Of a stretch of DNA of 39,282 nucleotides, positions 7,167 to 27,905 are shown piece by piece. Each line of letters starts with the position of its first letter. The stretch's first letter is position 1. The DNA is from Gammaproteobacteria bacterium (GTDB taxonomy: Bacteria > Pseudomonadota > Gammaproteobacteria > Ga0077554 > Ga007554): positions 1 to 39,282 of the forward strand of contig JAKFXX010000045.1 of NCBI GenBank assembly GCA_021731145.1, in the 5' to 3' direction. Made by a program: the position numbers and the translations under genes. The notes beneath the pieces were generated by a model. It ran no database searches. It was not told the origin of the DNA and was given only the letters and a program-made list of their open reading frames with translations.

Positions 7167-7724
7167 TTAGGCGGGCAGGGGTGATAGGGCTTCGCTCGGG
7201 TTGGCAATTTTACGCCGGTATGCGAATGCGCCCAGCATGCCAAGGCCAAGCAGCATCATCGCCCATGTTTCCGCTTCTGGGACAGGAGGGGCGACAGTTG
7301 GGGTGAAATGGAGGTCGTACGAGGCATTTCCTGATACGCCCGTCACTGTGGCAAAGAGAAATTTGCCGGGTTGGGTGTCAAAAGAAAATGATGCGCCAGG
7401 AGTGCCGCTCGAGAAAGAACCGCCTCCCAGTGCGTTAATAGCGCCGGATATTCCGCTAAAAAGGCTAAAGCTGTCCGCCGAGAATACCGAGAAACCACCA
7501 AAAAATGACGAGTTACCGCTTGTGTTGATCGTTGCCGTGTAGTCGGACGTGGGGATCTGACCTAGGCCGGATAAGACAAAAAAGTCAGTCTCATTCGAAA
7601 GAACGCTTGCCGAAAAGCTTTGTCCATTGAAGTTCAGGGTGGGTAATGCAAAGGCTGCGCTGCTCATACCGAGCAATGCGGCAGCCCCGATCAATTTTTT
7701 GAGTCCTGAAGCTGTGTTGTTCAT
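7167..7724 (-). CDS. PEP-CTERM sorting domain protein 3
   Basis: A 185-residue exported protein. The signal peptide runs MNNTASGLKKLIGAAALLGM to SSAAFA. The body is rich in Ser, Gly and Phe (for example FFGGFSVFSADSFSLFSG) and predicted all-beta. The C-terminus is VPEAETWAMMLLGLGMLGAF followed by AYRRK and about 12 more residues. VPEAETWAM is the common PEP-CTERM variant of beta- and gammaproteobacteria. A strong AAGGAG lies six bases before the ATG. It is not closely related in its body to the two neighbouring FxDxF proteins, but shares a box upstream with them, here duplicated with a 46-bp period. Exosortase processing and surface export are inferred; its specific function is unknown. Confidence 0.87.
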   Translation of the reverse strand: MNNTASGLKKLIGAAALLGMSSAAFALPTLNFNGQSFSASVLSNETDFFVLSGLGQIPTSDYTATINTSGNSSFFGGFSVFSADSFSLFSGISGAINALGGGSFSSGTPGASFSFDTQPGKFLFATVTGVSGNASYDLHFTPTVAPPVPEAETWAMMLLGLGMLGAFAYRRKIANPSEALSPLPA

Positions 7725-8559: not shown

Positions 8560-11500
8560 ATGGACATGCTGCACCGTATCTTGTTTTGGCTGCTGATTCT
8601 TGTTTCAGCGCCGCTAGCATCAGCAACTGTAACGGTCGTCCCTGACACGGTGCCCTATGGCCGTGCCTCAGAGGTGATGGTTACCATTAATGGTGCTGTG
8701 TCACCCGGCAGCAGGTTTGTGCTGGAGTCGGGTGGTCCTTTTGTCGAGCAGGAGCTGCCATTGACATACAAAGTCCATGATATGGCGCTGCGCAATGGAT
8801 TGGTCTATCTGGCAGCGGGTGAGCAGGGGTTAAGGATTATTGACGCCGGGATGCCAGGGGCTCCAAAACTGGTTGGACACTTTGCTGCAAATCCGGCTGT
8901 CCGCGCTGTGCTGGACAGTGGGCTGGCCTTGATTACGGATGGTGCCAATGCCCTGGAAATGGTGGATGTCAGGGACACGTCGCATCCCAAGGCCGTGGGC
9001 CACTATCGTTCTGATCGGCCCATTACAGATGTGTTTGTGGATGGCGGATACGCGTATCTGCTGCTGGATAAAGCCAGTGTTGCGGTGCTTGATATCCGGT
9101 CTCCGGCAAATGCCGCCATGCTTTCCCGATATGAGTTGGAGGGGGAGGCGGGCAAGCTGTTTGTCGAGGGAGATCATATTTATGTGGCGAATGGCGCCCG
9201 GGGTCTTGCGGTGTTGGATGCCAGCGACAAATCCCGTCTCAAACCAGCGGGGCGTTATGCCGTTACGGGCGGTGCGATGGATGTGGCGGTGCAGGATGGG
9301 CTGGCGCTGGTGGCGCGCGGTGTTGCCGGGCTGGGGGTGTTCGATGTCTCCGATCCGGCGCGCATCAAGTGGTTAGGCAGTCACAGCAGGCTGGGCAATA
9401 TTGTTGGCCTGAAAATCCAGGGGCGGCAGGCGCTGGTGTGGAATGACCGCTTTGATCTGATGCTGCTGGATATTGTCAAGCCTGCCATGCCCGCTATTAT
9501 TGCTTCTTACCGTACCACGCATGATGTCATCAGTGCCGGGCTGGATGGCGGCAAGGTGATCGCGACCACGCCGTCCGCACTTCAGGTGCTGGATTTCTCT
9601 GGCGTGCCGCCGCAGTTTTCAAATGAAAATCTGGACGTGGGGCAGGGCGTCAATTTTGGCGGTGAGCGCAGGCTGTTCATTCGCGATAACGTTGCTTATG
9701 TGTCGGATTGGTTCGCTGGCCTGCATCTCTATGATATCAGTGACCCGCGCCGCCCCAAGCTGTTGTCTACCTTTCATACGCCGGGTTCTGCCAAGGGTGT
9801 GGTGGTGAGGGGTGATTATGCTTTTGTGGCGGATGATGACCGTGGTCTGCTGGTGTTGAATATCAAGGATCCGCGTCAGCCCATGCAGGTTGCCAATCTG
9901 CCAACCAATGGTTTGGCTTATACGCCGAAGCTGGTGGGTGATCTGCTCTATCTTGCCAGTCATCGTGGCGGTTTTCAGATTATTGATGTCCGTGATCCTG
10001 GCGCGCCTGCGATCATTGCCGATGTCGACACGCCCGGCAAGGCGTGGAGCCTTGAGGTCGCCGGTGATGTGCTCTATGTCGCGGATGATGCCTCCGGCTT
10101 ACTGGTGTTCGATGTGCGTGATCCGCGCCGGCCGCGACAGATCGGCACATTCAGCCCAGGCGGCGCGGCGGAGGATGTGGTGGTGCGAGGTGATACTGCG
10201 TACGTGGCCTTTTTTGACCAGGGTTTTTATGTCCTTGATATTAAAAATCCCGCCGAACCGAAGGTGCTGGGGCATACCTCCACACCGGGCAATGCGCGTG
10301 TCATTGAGCTGAAAGGTAATCTGGCGTATGTCACGGATTGGTTTGCGGGGGTGCAGGTGATCGACATCAGCGACGCACAACATCCCGCCATTATCGGTAG
10401 TTATGACACCAGTGGTGCGGCATGGGGTATTGGCATCAAGGGTGACTATGCCTATATCGGCGACTGGTGGGGCGGGTTCGCTGTGCTGGATATCAGCAAT
10501 CCCGCATCGCCCACGTTGGCGGGTCATTATCACACCCCAAGCCAACCCCGAAATCAGGTGATGCAGGCCGCCGTGCAGGGTAAGTTTGCCTATACGGCCA
10601 ATAGCGCGACCGGACTACAGGTATTTGATATTACCAATCCTCTGAATCCCACCTGGGCCACCGGCCTGGATATCAACGGCACTGCCAATGCGGTCTGGCT
10701 GGATGGGCCGGTTGCTTTTCTTGCCGTTGATAATGGCGAGGATGAGGGGCTGGTGATGGCCGATATTCGCAATCCGTATCAGACGCACCGCATCGGCGGC
10801 ATGAAAATCGCGGGCGGTGCGCTGGGGGTGCAGGTGCATAACGGGCGTGCCTATGTTGCGAGCAGCCGTGCCGGGCTCATCGTCATGGACGTTAAAAATC
10901 CCGGGCATCCGCAACGCATTGTGGCTTACCCTGCAAAACTGAACGATGTGTGGGTCGATAACGGCCGTATCTTTATCGCAACGGTGGACCGCGGGCTGGA
11001 GGTGCTTGATATGGACCTCAAACCAACCTCACGCTACAAAACGGGCCATGAAACTGTCTTGGTTCGTGCGCGTGGCGATACGGTTTTCCTTTACGAAAAA
11101 GGTGTGGGGATTCGTGTGCTGGATATCAGCGGCAAGAATGTCAGGCCGATCGCGTTGTTTGAGACCGGCGAGGCGCTATCAGACATCCTGCTGGAGGAGG
11201 ATTTATTGTATGTGGCCGGACAACAGTCAGGGCTGATGGTGGTCGATATCTCCAGTCTGACGCAACCGGAAATACAGGCCATTTATCCGCTAACCCAGCG
11301 TGCCGGGAAAGTTACCCTAACCAATAACACGGCCCTGCTTGGGGGTGCGGACATCATTACCGCAGTGAAGCTGCTGCCACCTATTGCTCTTGCCAAAGTG
11401 GGTGAAAAGAAGCTGCGGGCAGTTATTCCAAAGGATATGCCGATAGGCGCTTACAATGTCGTGGAGGTTGACGCGAAGGGCGGAAAAGTCCGCAGCCGTA

Positions 11501-11598
11501 ACGCATTGAAAGTCGAAATGCAGCGATTCTCCAAGCCGAAAATCACGCCTGAGGAGTTTCAGCGGTTGTTGCAGGAGCAAAGAAAGCTGCGGCAGTGA
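8560..11598 (+). CDS. Secreted LVIVD-repeat beta-propeller protein
   Basis: A 1012-residue protein with a signal peptide (LFWLLILVSAPLASA, cleavage near residue 22). From about residue 65 to 935 it consists of roughly 42-residue repeats. The typical unit is G-(S/N)-A..V.V.GD.AYVAD...GL.VLDI.DP..P..(L/I)G....T, for example GLHLYDISDPRRPKLLSTF and GVQVIDISDAQHPAIIGSY. These match LVIVD repeats, each expected to form one propeller blade. I count about 21, enough for three seven-bladed propellers. The N-terminal VTVVPDTVPYGRASEVMVTI and C-terminal AVIPKDMPIGAYNVVEVDAK segments look like two halves of an Ig/IPT-like domain. The tail (KITPEEFQRLLQEQRKLRQ) is charged and helical. AAGGA lies before the ATG. 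It converges with the vWA gene 19 bp away. Probably a cell-surface or periplasmic binding protein; the ligand is unknown. Confidence 0.88.
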   Translation: MDMLHRILFWLLILVSAPLASATVTVVPDTVPYGRASEVMVTINGAVSPGSRFVLESGGPFVEQELPLTYKVHDMALRNGLVYLAAGEQGLRIIDAGMPGAPKLVGHFAANPAVRAVLDSGLALITDGANALEMVDVRDTSHPKAVGHYRSDRPITDVFVDGGYAYLLLDKASVAVLDIRSPANAAMLSRYELEGEAGKLFVEGDHIYVANGARGLAVLDASDKSRLKPAGRYAVTGGAMDVAVQDGLALVARGVAGLGVFDVSDPARIKWLGSHSRLGNIVGLKIQGRQALVWNDRFDLMLLDIVKPAMPAIIASYRTTHDVISAGLDGGKVIATTPSALQVLDFSGVPPQFSNENLDVGQGVNFGGERRLFIRDNVAYVSDWFAGLHLYDISDPRRPKLLSTFHTPGSAKGVVVRGDYAFVADDDRGLLVLNIKDPRQPMQVANLPTNGLAYTPKLVGDLLYLASHRGGFQIIDVRDPGAPAIIADVDTPGKAWSLEVAGDVLYVADDASGLLVFDVRDPRRPRQIGTFSPGGAAEDVVVRGDTAYVAFFDQGFYVLDIKNPAEPKVLGHTSTPGNARVIELKGNLAYVTDWFAGVQVIDISDAQHPAIIGSYDTSGAAWGIGIKGDYAYIGDWWGGFAVLDISNPASPTLAGHYHTPSQPRNQVMQAAVQGKFAYTANSATGLQVFDITNPLNPTWATGLDINGTANAVWLDGPVAFLAVDNGEDEGLVMADIRNPYQTHRIGGMKIAGGALGVQVHNGRAYVASSRAGLIVMDVKNPGHPQRIVAYPAKLNDVWVDNGRIFIATVDRGLEVLDMDLKPTSRYKTGHETVLVRARGDTVFLYEKGVGIRVLDISGKNVRPIALFETGEALSDILLEEDLLYVAGQQSGLMVVDISSLTQPEIQAIYPLTQRAGKVTLTNNTALLGGADIITAVKLLPPIALAKVGEKKLRAVIPKDMPIGAYNVVEVDAKGGKVRSRNALKVEMQRFSKPKITPEEFQRLLQEQRKLRQ

Positions 11599-11617: not shown

Positions 11618-12388
11618 CTACTTGAAATCAAGGTGGAGCATTTTTCCGCCGGTTTTTTCCGCGAGCGTGCCGTATGCGTGATTGGTGGATTCATTCGATC
11701 GGCCCAGCGGCAGGGTGAATACCGGGCTGGGGATTTTGTCGTAGTAGATCTGGTCGTTGGAGGGTTCATCGCCAACCAGCAAATAGGCCCCCGGCGGCGG
11801 GGAGTTTCTGGCTGCGACGCGGAAGGCGTGGCCTATGGTTTCCATGCTGCCGATGAAAGGCGCGCCGCGCATCAGCCGGTCGAACATCTCGCCCATCGTG
11901 CCGGTGTAGGTCTCCGCTTTGTTGTCGGAGAACCAGGTGATGGCGGATAGCCGTTTGCCTGATTTATTTATGACCAGCCGCAATACCGGTACGAGGAAGG
12001 ACGCCAGGCCGTGCATGGAGCCCGATGCGTCGACTACCAGGTGAATGTCATCGCCGGGAATATTTTGCAGCCCTTCGATAAAAAGATCGAAATCCTTGCG
12101 GCCAAAGGTGGAGGTTTCGAGAATTTTTTCGAGATAATTTTCCTCGCTGTTGACGACGATCTGCTCGAGGTTTTTGGCCAAGCTTTTTTTGTCGGCCTCC
12201 GCTGCGGATAATCGCTGCTGGAGATCCTGCACCTGTCCTTTTAGTTTGCCGGGCTGGCTGCCGCCCGACATGCGGGCGGTGATCACCATGATGGTGAACA
12301 GGAAGATAAAGATGACCAGCATCAACAACGCCATATCCGAATAGGTGATATAGACGCTTTCATCCATGAAACGGCGGCGTCTATTCAT
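11618..12388 (-). CDS. MotB-like transmembrane protein with C-terminal vWA domain
   Basis: A 256-residue protein. Residues 14-38 form one membrane helix with ITYSDMALLMLVIFIFLF. The Asp18 position matches the proton-carrying Asp of MotB (YADxxxA) more than the TolR/ExbD pattern. A coiled-coil segment follows (about 46-90). Residues 113-256 are a von Willebrand factor A domain with a full MIDAS start, DASGS (D120, S122, S124), a possible Thr184 and an acidic third motif at VGDEPS (D207). The usual peptidoglycan-binding OmpA domain of MotB is absent. Its start overlaps the stop of the upstream MotA/TolQ-type gene by eight bases, so the two are co-translated. Inferred role: the force-receiving subunit of a proton-driven 5:2-type motor whose output is a metal-dependent adhesion or protein-binding domain in the periplasm. 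The target is unknown. Confidence 0.83.
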   Translation of the reverse strand: MNRRRRFMDESVYITYSDMALLMLVIFIFLFTIMVITARMSGGSQPGKLKGQVQDLQQRLSAAEADKKSLAKNLEQIVVNSEENYLEKILETSTFGRKDFDLFIEGLQNIPGDDIHLVVDASGSMHGLASFLVPVLRLVINKSGKRLSAITWFSDNKAETYTGTMGEMFDRLMRGAPFIGSMETIGHAFRVAARNSPPPGAYLLVGDEPSNDQIYYDKIPSPVFTLPLGRSNESTNHAYGTLAEKTGGKMLHLDFK

Positions 12389-13418
12389 GGGACGAATCGG
12401 GCGGTGACCGCCGCTTGCGGTTGGACAGGAACAGCCTCTTCAGCGGCGGCCACCAGGCGCGGTTGACCTGATCCACCAGCTTGATTTCCTGCCGCAACAG
12501 AATACGGTAATGCTTTTGCATTTTGATGGCTTCTCTGAGGGCGGCAAGGTCATCGCCTTTTTCCAGCCCATCGCCAAAGTCGCTCAATTTCCTGGCCTCT
12601 TCACGGAACTCCGCCATTGCTTGTTTGGAGCCCGCAAACGCATCCTGCAACAGTTTGACATTCGCGCCCAGCGCGGCAACCTCGCCGTTGAGAATGCGCA
12701 CATCCTTTTCTTCCGTTTGTTTGCAATCGGCCGCGCAATATACCAGGCAGATTTTCATGATGCGGTCATAGAGGTCCTCAACCCCATTTTCGGTAATCAG
12801 GGCGAACACGCGCAGCAGTAAACCGCCAAACACCGCGCCCAACAGCGTGGCGTAGAAGGCCGTGCCCATGCCGCCCATCGCTTTGCGCAATCCCTCCAGC
12901 AGCAGTGCTTCGTCATGGCCTAATGCCTCCAGCGAGCTGCTTAAACCCGCCAGTGTGATGCTCAGGCCCATTACCGTCCCGATCAATCCCTGGGTGATGA
13001 GCAGGTTGCCCATGACCGCCAGGCCATGGCTGACGCGCTGGTAGAAGGAGAGTTCGGTCTGGAGCAGTGCTTCCAGATTGAGGTGACCGTTGGTCATCAC
13101 CACCTCTTTCAGTGAGGCGAAAAACCGGTGTGAGGCGTGGCGTTGCAACGGGGTAAGGATGCCCATCAGGCCTTTTTCCCGAGCGGCGCTTTCCATTTGT
13201 ATCACTTCAATGGATTCGCGCGTCAGTGTCATGGTGAGCATGAAGCTGACAAACATGCTCAACACAAACAGCGTAAGGATGACCCAGGTGAGCTTGGTGG
13301 TGTCGTTTTTTATAAATTCCCAGATGCCGGTGTCGACATACAGTCCCAGCGTGACGATGAGTGCGAAAGAGGCCCAGACCAGCCAAAACAGCAAGGTGCG
13401 GTATACCTTGTTGCTCAT
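12381..13418 (-). CDS. MotA/TolQ/ExbB-family proton channel subunit
   Basis: A 345-residue inner-membrane protein with four predicted helices: 7-27 (TLLFWLVWASFALIVTLGLY), 43-65, 133-157 and 184-208. Helix 3 carries the family signature (GNLLITQGLIGTVMGLSITL) and helix 4 the small-residue pattern GGMGTAFYATLLGAVFGGLL. A cytoplasmic loop of about 65 residues lies between helices 2 and 3. A long C-terminal cytoplasmic part (residues 210-345) has heptad-like stretches. The ATG at 13418 is chosen because the protein then begins MSNKVYR just before helix 1; the upstream frame is open to 13457. The next gene encodes its presumed MotB-like partner, overlapping by eight bases. In this superfamily a pentamer of this subunit surrounds two partner helices. 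The specific system is not recognised as flagellar, Tol or Ton. Confidence 0.85.
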   Translation of the reverse strand: MSNKVYRTLLFWLVWASFALIVTLGLYVDTGIWEFIKNDTTKLTWVILTLFVLSMFVSFMLTMTLTRESIEVIQMESAAREKGLMGILTPLQRHASHRFFASLKEVVMTNGHLNLEALLQTELSFYQRVSHGLAVMGNLLITQGLIGTVMGLSITLAGLSSSLEALGHDEALLLEGLRKAMGGMGTAFYATLLGAVFGGLLLRVFALITENGVEDLYDRIMKICLVYCAADCKQTEEKDVRILNGEVAALGANVKLLQDAFAGSKQAMAEFREEARKLSDFGDGLEKGDDLAALREAIKMQKHYRILLRQEIKLVDQVNRAWWPPLKRLFLSNRKRRSPPDSSHE

Positions 13419-26930: not shown

Positions 26931-27905
26931 TTAGGTGGCCTTGCGGCGACGGCGGGCAAAGCCCAAACCAGCCAAGCCTAAACCCAGCAGGGCAAGGGAG
27001 GCAGGTTCAGGAACCTGCTGTACCCCACCACCGCCACCCTGAGTGACTTCACCAAATACCGAGACCCCGAAGAGGTTGCCACCTGCCCCAGTATTGATCG
27101 TTTGTTCGACCGTGCCGCTCGCGATGCTGAATTTATAAAGCATGCCGGAGCTGATGTCGCCACTCCAGAAGGATGTTCCATTCGGATCCAGGTTCAACGC
27201 AAACCAACTGTCTTTCCCAGTTACGTCATACGTTTGAGTTATGGCGCCTGTTGAGTTCATACGCAGAACGTTGCTGCTATTGGCCACCAGCAAGCCCCCG
27301 TCACCCAGGAGCCGAAGTGCATACTCCCCTCCCGCATTGGAGAAGTTGGCCAAGCGTGTGTTAGTGGCGATGTCCAGTACACCCACAAAGCCTTGCTCAG
27401 TCGTGAAGTAGATGAGCGAGTTGGCGGCGTTGAGGTCAATCCAATCCGCCCTGCCTGCAGTAGTGTTCAGCGAAGCGAGGAGGGTGCCCGTTGGCGAGTA
27501 TTTCCCGATCAAACCGCTACCGGCACTGCTCATATAGAAATTGCCTGCCTGATCGAAGACGAGGCTCTCCGGCAAGCCAGTCTGCGAGACGAATGGCGAG
27601 GTGAGGGTGTGCGGCTCGCCTGGCCCGGCGAACTTGGCCAGGAAGTTATTGCTGAAGTTGGTGACGTAAAGATTCCCGGCGGCATCGGACGCCGATCCGG
27701 TGGTATAGCCACTAGCGCCCGTATTCAGCGTTTCCTGCAAGACTCCTGCAGAATTATAGTGCTTCACATTACCGCTGCCCGTGGACGCAAAAATGTCCCC
27801 GATCGCAAAGGGAGTTGCCTGTGCCACATTTACAACTCCCGCCATACCGACCACCAGCGCAAGTGCGGCTAAGGTCGGGCTCAATTTTGATTTTGCTAGT
27901 TTCAT
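26931..27905 (-). CDS. PEP-CTERM protein with NHL/Vgb-like propeller body
   Basis: 324 residues. The N-terminal signal peptide runs from MKLAKSKLSPTLAALALVVG to AQA. The body has repeated strands of the type GNLYVTNFSNNFLAKF, GNFYMSSAGSGLIGKY and SLIYFTTEQGFVGVLD, typical of a beta-propeller. After a Gly-rich linker (TQGGGGGV) comes a textbook sorting signal, QQVPEPASLALLGLGLAGLG, followed by FARRRRKAT. It is thus a canonical exosortase substrate, unlike the VPEAETW-type signals at 5519-7724. GGAG eight bases upstream of the ATG sets the start. It is monocistronic, with a strong terminator downstream and a sigma-54-like promoter upstream, consistent with PEP-CTERM genes known to be controlled by RpoN with PrsK/PrsR. 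The ligand is unknown. Confidence 0.9.
   Translation of the reverse strand: MKLAKSKLSPTLAALALVVGMAGVVNVAQATPFAIGDIFASTGSGNVKHYNSAGVLQETLNTGASGYTTGSASDAAGNLYVTNFSNNFLAKFAGPGEPHTLTSPFVSQTGLPESLVFDQAGNFYMSSAGSGLIGKYSPTGTLLASLNTTAGRADWIDLNAANSLIYFTTEQGFVGVLDIATNTRLANFSNAGGEYALRLLGDGGLLVANSSNVLRMNSTGAITQTYDVTGKDSWFALNLDPNGTSFWSGDISSGMLYKFSIASGTVEQTINTGAGGNLFGVSVFGEVTQGGGGGVQQVPEPASLALLGLGLAGLGFARRRRKAT

Follow-up and report, generated by a model that had tools for sequence, protein, structure and literature searches.

Genes at the locus

The window, as we call the whole stretch of 39,282 nucleotides of gammaproteobacterial DNA that was analysed, carries two overlapping genes on the reverse strand. 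Gene A (positions 12381-13418) encodes a channel subunit of the MotA/TolQ/ExbB family, and gene B (11618-12388) encodes an axle-like subunit of 256 amino acids. The stop codon of A and the start codon of B share ATGAATAG, and this 8-bp overlap suggests translational coupling. Counted from the ATG at position 13418, A has 345 amino acids; the length is 358 if the open reading frame is taken to 13457. The start was set at 13418 because the orthologues (e.g., that of locus L003) begin there and a plausible Shine-Dalgarno sequence lies in front of it.

Upstream of A, on the same strand, lie genes for a NUDIX protein and a putative methyltransferase-like protein, hemE, a gltD-like gene, and gltB. 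The order gltB-gltD-hemE-methyltransferase-like-A-B recurs, with some gaps, in other families (L064, L068, and L069), which suggests old vertical inheritance. Downstream of B and convergent with it, a forward-strand gene (8560-11598) encodes a protein of 1012 amino acids with at least 13 LVIVD beta-propeller repeats. Relatives of this protein occupy the same position in L013 and lie nearby in L075. The window also encodes two proteins with PEP-CTERM sorting signals (7167-7724 and 26931-27905, both on the reverse strand), which points to a probable exosortase system in the host. Flagellar, Tol, Ton, and Zorya genes had been described as absent nearby in the original prediction, and none is found among the open reading frames of the window that were scanned.

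The channel subunit

A matches the Pfam family PF01618 (MotA_ExbB) at 7.4e-8 with 32.6 bits, against a curated cut-off of 22.9. Its sequence contains four membrane segments, with a cytoplasmic stretch of about 65 residues between helices 2 and 3. The early description of this gene product as a four-helix MotA/TolQ-type protein is borne out by the family match and the four segments. The AF2 model of A has helices at residues 5-42, 54-95, 128-177, and 183-241; its pLDDT of 59.7 is poor, and the four membrane segments agree with it. The C-terminus is a helical tail of about 120 residues, which is variable in length and weakly conserved across orthologues. A sequence profile search of the PDB with A returned weak MotA matches only.

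Two pore threonines of A (358-aa numbering) are present in all 68 A sequences compared. T161 lies in helix 3 in the motif GLIGTVxG (12975-12977, reverse strand), and T204 lies in helix 4 in the motif FYxTLLG (12846-12848, reverse strand). They were compared with known channel subunits in an alignment that included E. coli TolQ, ExbB, and MotA as well as the other PF01618 members of the host genome. T161 shares a column with the Thr of GLFGTVWG in E. coli TolQ and ExbB, and T204 with the Thr of IATAIG/LATAIG in TolQ/ExbB.

Elsewhere, the host genome has seven further PF01618 loci, some of them TolQ-, ExbB-, or MotA-like. In a tree of A subunits, the window family stands apart from Tol/Exb, from MotA, and from a coiled-coil family. 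A separate MotA-like/MotB-like pair, unrelated to the one described here, was also observed (L101:1429-3294, L104:56-2337, and L105:191-2020). Its B protein combines a transmembrane helix with the sequence FWPSFTDIM, a lengthy coiled coil, and a C-terminal domain that no Pfam model matches significantly and that is neither OmpA nor vWA. Its A protein forms a separate, fully supported clade in the tree.

The axle-like subunit

B consists of an Arg-rich N-terminus, a single transmembrane helix, a helical linker, and a C-terminal vWA domain. The transmembrane helix carries D18 (12335-12337, reverse strand), a MotB-type and putatively ion-carrying Asp. Among 72 distinct B sequences, D18 is conserved in 71; the sole exception is an Ala in L098 (G262), in the sequence SFSALSLLML. 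The single helix with its MotB-type Asp is therefore as first described. A check for invariance had been suggested for both D18 and D120; invariance holds for D120 (72/72), whereas D18 falls short of it by this one sequence. Residues 13-37 match the MotB_plug model weakly (0.0024, below the cut-off). No OmpA or ExbD domain is recognised in B by Pfam; the TolR/ExbD model PF02472 gives no match to B and reaches 0.027 in one of 11 orthologues. An OmpA-like peptidoglycan-binding domain had likewise been reported as missing, and the C-terminal domain is a vWA domain in its place.

The AF2 model of B has a middling pLDDT of 70.6, and the AF2 input alignments were shallow (6 rows). It contains two helices, residues 10-41 and residues 46-79, followed by an alpha/beta domain that starts near residue 111. 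The predicted linker helix, residues 46-79 (12152-12253, reverse strand), has a coiled-coil-like sequence, in agreement with the coiled coil originally noted in B, and stands where MotB has its plug/linker. Residues 111-256 (11621-12058, reverse strand) have a vWA topology in this predicted fold. In VIA structural alignments against the PDB, this region matches integrin I, vWF A2, proteasome-subunit, and bacterial vWA domains with Z scores of 12.5-14.0 and rmsd values of 2.7-3.1 over about 140 residues. These matches include the integrin alphaL I domain (3bn3; Z 14.0, rmsd 2.7, 139 aligned residues) and the bacterial vWA domain 4fx5 (Z 13.5). Foldseek alone is marginal (best 6e-4 to 1e-3), and a PDB sequence profile search with B gave chance-level matches only. 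None of the Pfam vWA models recognises B. B scores under their cut-offs and would thus tend to escape surveys by domain.

The structural alignment pairs residues 111 to 256 of B with residues 128 to 292 of alphaL. Provided that the first ten positions are ungapped, D120 of B would correspond to D137 of alphaL, the first Asp of the MIDAS. D120 opens the first MIDAS motif, D120-A-S-G-S124 (DxSxS; 12017-12031, reverse strand), in which D120, S/T122, and S124 are each conserved in 72/72 sequences; most orthologues have DxTxS. The likely residue of motif 2 is T184 in G-S-M-E-T-I-G (11837-11839, reverse strand), a position with T/S in 67 and N in 5 of the 72 sequences. The likely residue of motif 3 is D207 in GDEP (11768-11770, reverse strand), which is invariant, as is the adjacent E208 (72/72 for both). 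B itself carries every MIDAS ligand position (DxS/TxS, T, and D), and the intact DxSxS of the original prediction is upheld together with its vWA domain.

The Arg-rich N-terminus and the positive-inside rule would place the vWA domain in the periplasm. The transmembrane helix ends around residue 41 and the vWA domain starts at residue 111, which leaves about 70 residues in between. Judged from this spacing and from the model, the domain should lie within several nanometres of the inner membrane on its periplasmic side. A grip on an envelope protein is more likely than a role as a surface adhesin. Of the "adhesion domain" originally proposed, the MIDAS-bearing vWA stands, whereas "adhesion" is only a family name.

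The same layout can be read in the opposite direction, with the vWA domain as the input. A ligand at the MIDAS would then gate ion flow through A, and the signal would pass through the tail of A to the cytoplasm, making the pair a ligand-gated ion channel or envelope sensor. In integrin I domains, MIDAS ligation alters the conformation of the vWA domain. The linker of B stands at the place of the MotB plug, and the long cytoplasmic tail of A is missing in TolQ and ExbB, which also favours a sensor. However, the weak conservation and variable length of this tail speak against it, and no conserved signalling partner lies beside the pair in the 56 loci that were fetched. We regard this reading as unlikely, while giving it some weight.

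Pairing and distribution

A lies directly upstream of B on the same strand for all 74 distinct B genes. No B gene was found without A (0/74), as the motor reading of the original prediction expects. The gap between the two genes is -32 to +33 bp in 71 of the 74 pairs. This constant linkage, together with the conservation of D18 and the MIDAS residues, goes beyond what chance would give. All 74 pairs of the window family have one vWA gene per motor. A-like matches without B are only those of a locus with two vWA genes, which is compared with the pair below.

Strong B matches occur in 33 of the 369 sampled genomes of the window's class; four further matches in this sample are weak and limited to the transmembrane segment. 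Within the window's own family, B is present in 8/8 searched genomes. A phylum sample of 398 adds 43 genomes with B from outside the class, and all of these belong to families f207, f227, and f240. This second class is probably Zetaproteobacteria, since L016 belongs to Mariprofundales and its A groups with the f207 and f227 rows in the tree. A and B are thus an old, strictly paired two-gene module of two bacterial classes.

Some genomes have at least two copies of the pair (G247:C1, G394, G404, G429, and G465). One of them is the gammaproteobacterium Candidatus Tenderia electrophaga (G247:C1; plasmid 100% to CP013100.1), which has two full A-B pairs, both intact. Searches of a plasmid collection gave no match to A, to B, or to a double-vWA protein. 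A biocathode bacterium and probable Zetaproteobacteria are among the multi-copy carriers; as a passing thought, the pair may be linked to extracellular electron uptake.

Recurrent neighbours

The 56 fetched loci that bear the pair show no general neighbour that could be a conserved partner or ligand gene, and OmpA, TolA, TonB, TolR, or ExbD genes do not recur beside the pair in these neighbourhoods. Two less general associations provide leads. A DUF4019/DUF3887-like lipoprotein gene adjoins B in eight loci from both classes (L070, L141, L015, L043, L044, L048, L050, and L058). In L070 (9129-9551) and L141 (9184-9621), it follows B directly, after 9-10 bp. In the window genome, the only homologue is a distant one and lies on a different contig. 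This lipoprotein is a candidate ligand or partner of B.

The second lead is cbb3-oxidase-type genes (ccoG, ccoP-like, cytochrome c4, and neighbours), which lie no more than about six genes from the pair in about 15 of the 56 loci, again in both classes (L015, L043, L044, L046-L049, L051, L057, L060, L063, L136, L140, L146, and L154). These genes were named by reading the sequences, without a profile search. They raise the possibility of a force-driven helper of a respiratory or envelope complex, similar to NorD/CoxE, whose client would be cbb3 oxidase or a different cytochrome. One B orthologue weakly matches the VWA_CoxE model (8e-4). However, most loci, including the window, have no oxidase gene nearby, and the cbb3 loci are related, so that their count is not independent. 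The vWA proteins of the NorD/CoxE type act in the cytoplasm, where they and MoxR-type ATPases assist in enzyme activation, whereas the vWA domain of B should be periplasmic. We consider a helper of this kind improbable.

Proposed mechanism

We favour, with some reserve, the view that A and B form a proton-driven inner-membrane rotary motor of the 5:2 type that turns a pair of vWA domains against a ligand in the envelope. The wheel would consist of five A subunits, with two B helices at its centre. With one vWA gene per motor, the axle is presumably a homodimer. By analogy with MotAB, TolQR, and ExbBD, ions would pass along the D18 residues and past the threonine ring of A (T161 and T204), leading to stepwise rotation. 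The turning axle would bear the periplasmic vWA pair on a short helical stalk, and the MIDAS metal sites would grip an acidic residue of the ligand. Torque or tension may reach the ligand directly, without a TolA/TonB arm or a peptidoglycan-binding domain. The constant presence of A and the near-invariance of D18 support the motor part of the original prediction; its suggestion of a new device does not hold, as discussed below. Points that speak against the motor are the Ala at D18 in L098, the Asn at position 184 in 5/72, the modest confidence of both AF2 models, the lack of a conserved ligand gene in the fetched loci, and the failure of BLAST to align the vWA part of B with those of the double-vWA locus described below.

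A more specific version treats MIDAS ligand binding by the homodimeric vWA axle as a metal-dependent clutch. The motor would run only when both vWA domains hold ligand, and force and sensing would share one site. On this view, Zetaproteobacteria and several gammaproteobacterial families would keep the pair as a conserved housekeeping module. We consider the clutch quite unlikely as a whole.

To our knowledge, the 5:2 motors known so far either anchor to peptidoglycan or pull on TolA or TonB. An axle that ends in a metal-dependent grip would, if true, be a different way to deliver force in the cell envelope.

Comparison with known motors

The pair resembles MotAB in its four-helix A subunit and in its B subunit with a single Asp-bearing helix and a C-terminal domain predicted to be periplasmic. 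Unlike MotAB, it has no OmpA-like peptidoglycan-binding domain and no flagellar genes nearby. With TolQR and ExbBD it shares the pore threonine motifs GLxGTVxG and ATxxG. However, the TolR/ExbD periplasmic domain is absent, no TolA or TonB gene is nearby, and A differs in its four membrane segments and in its long tail.

PADLOC, NCBIfam, and PHROGs gave weak matches only for the pair. ZorA and ZorB are among the best weak profile matches of the two proteins, and the A subunit of ZorAB also has a long cytoplasmic tail, as does A, which raises the question of a Zorya-like anti-phage motor. However, the score of 20.8 bits is far below the NCBIfam cut-off of 400, no ZorC/D/E-type neighbour recurs, and the vWA domain replaces the OmpA-like domain. 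The genes around the pair are housekeeping ones, such as glutamate synthase genes and hemE, and in some families many of the sampled genomes carry the pair. An anti-phage role of the Zorya type is therefore highly improbable.

The closest precedent is a class of TolQ-like genes with "TPH-vWA" axles and without TolR/ExbD (PMC12204202; Mol Biol Evol 2025, msaf138; section 8, Fig. 4c,d). That study proposed, mainly on the basis of structure prediction and gene order, that Asp-bearing transpore-helix vWA proteins join TolQ-like pentamers as a dimer. Its query proteins came from Idiomarina. In the AF3 models of that study, which concern a sister architecture, the Asp of the TPH sits inside a Thr ring. 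These motors have predominantly two different vWA genes each and occur mainly in Proteobacteria (PMC12204202). The window family shares with this class a TolQ-like gene tightly linked to an Asp-helix vWA protein, without TolR/ExbD, and differs from it in having one vWA gene per motor, not a heterologous pair. A and B are best read as a single-vWA branch of this class. The idea of a vWA axle is not new, and the different mechanical device suggested in the original prediction had already been proposed in 2025. A further paper, which surveys MotAB and related systems, makes no mention of vWA (PMC12505986; mBio 2025).

A gammaproteobacterial locus of the double-vWA type (G031/L135), which this analysis came upon independently, encodes a channel subunit of 264 amino acids and two vWA proteins of 335 and 349 amino acids, which are 34% identical to each other in a global alignment. 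Both begin with an SD-bearing transmembrane helix, as B does, but their vWA parts cannot be aligned with B by BLAST past this helix. With the L135 channel subunit as the query, further matches at E<=1e-9 in the 369 genomes belong to the window family only. In the reverse search, this subunit is the best match outside the window family, with 74.6 bits versus at least 375 inside. These reciprocal results indicate that the channel subunits of single- and double-vWA motors belong to one subfamily. In the A tree, the double-vWA row is on a very long branch, and its placement inside the window family was not used. Alvin_2249/2251 was considered as a relative and rejected, as it is listed with an ExbD/TolR gene. 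To the 2025 proposal (PMC12204202), the single-gene branch adds conservation statistics, residues that can be mutated, and a smaller system of two proteins.
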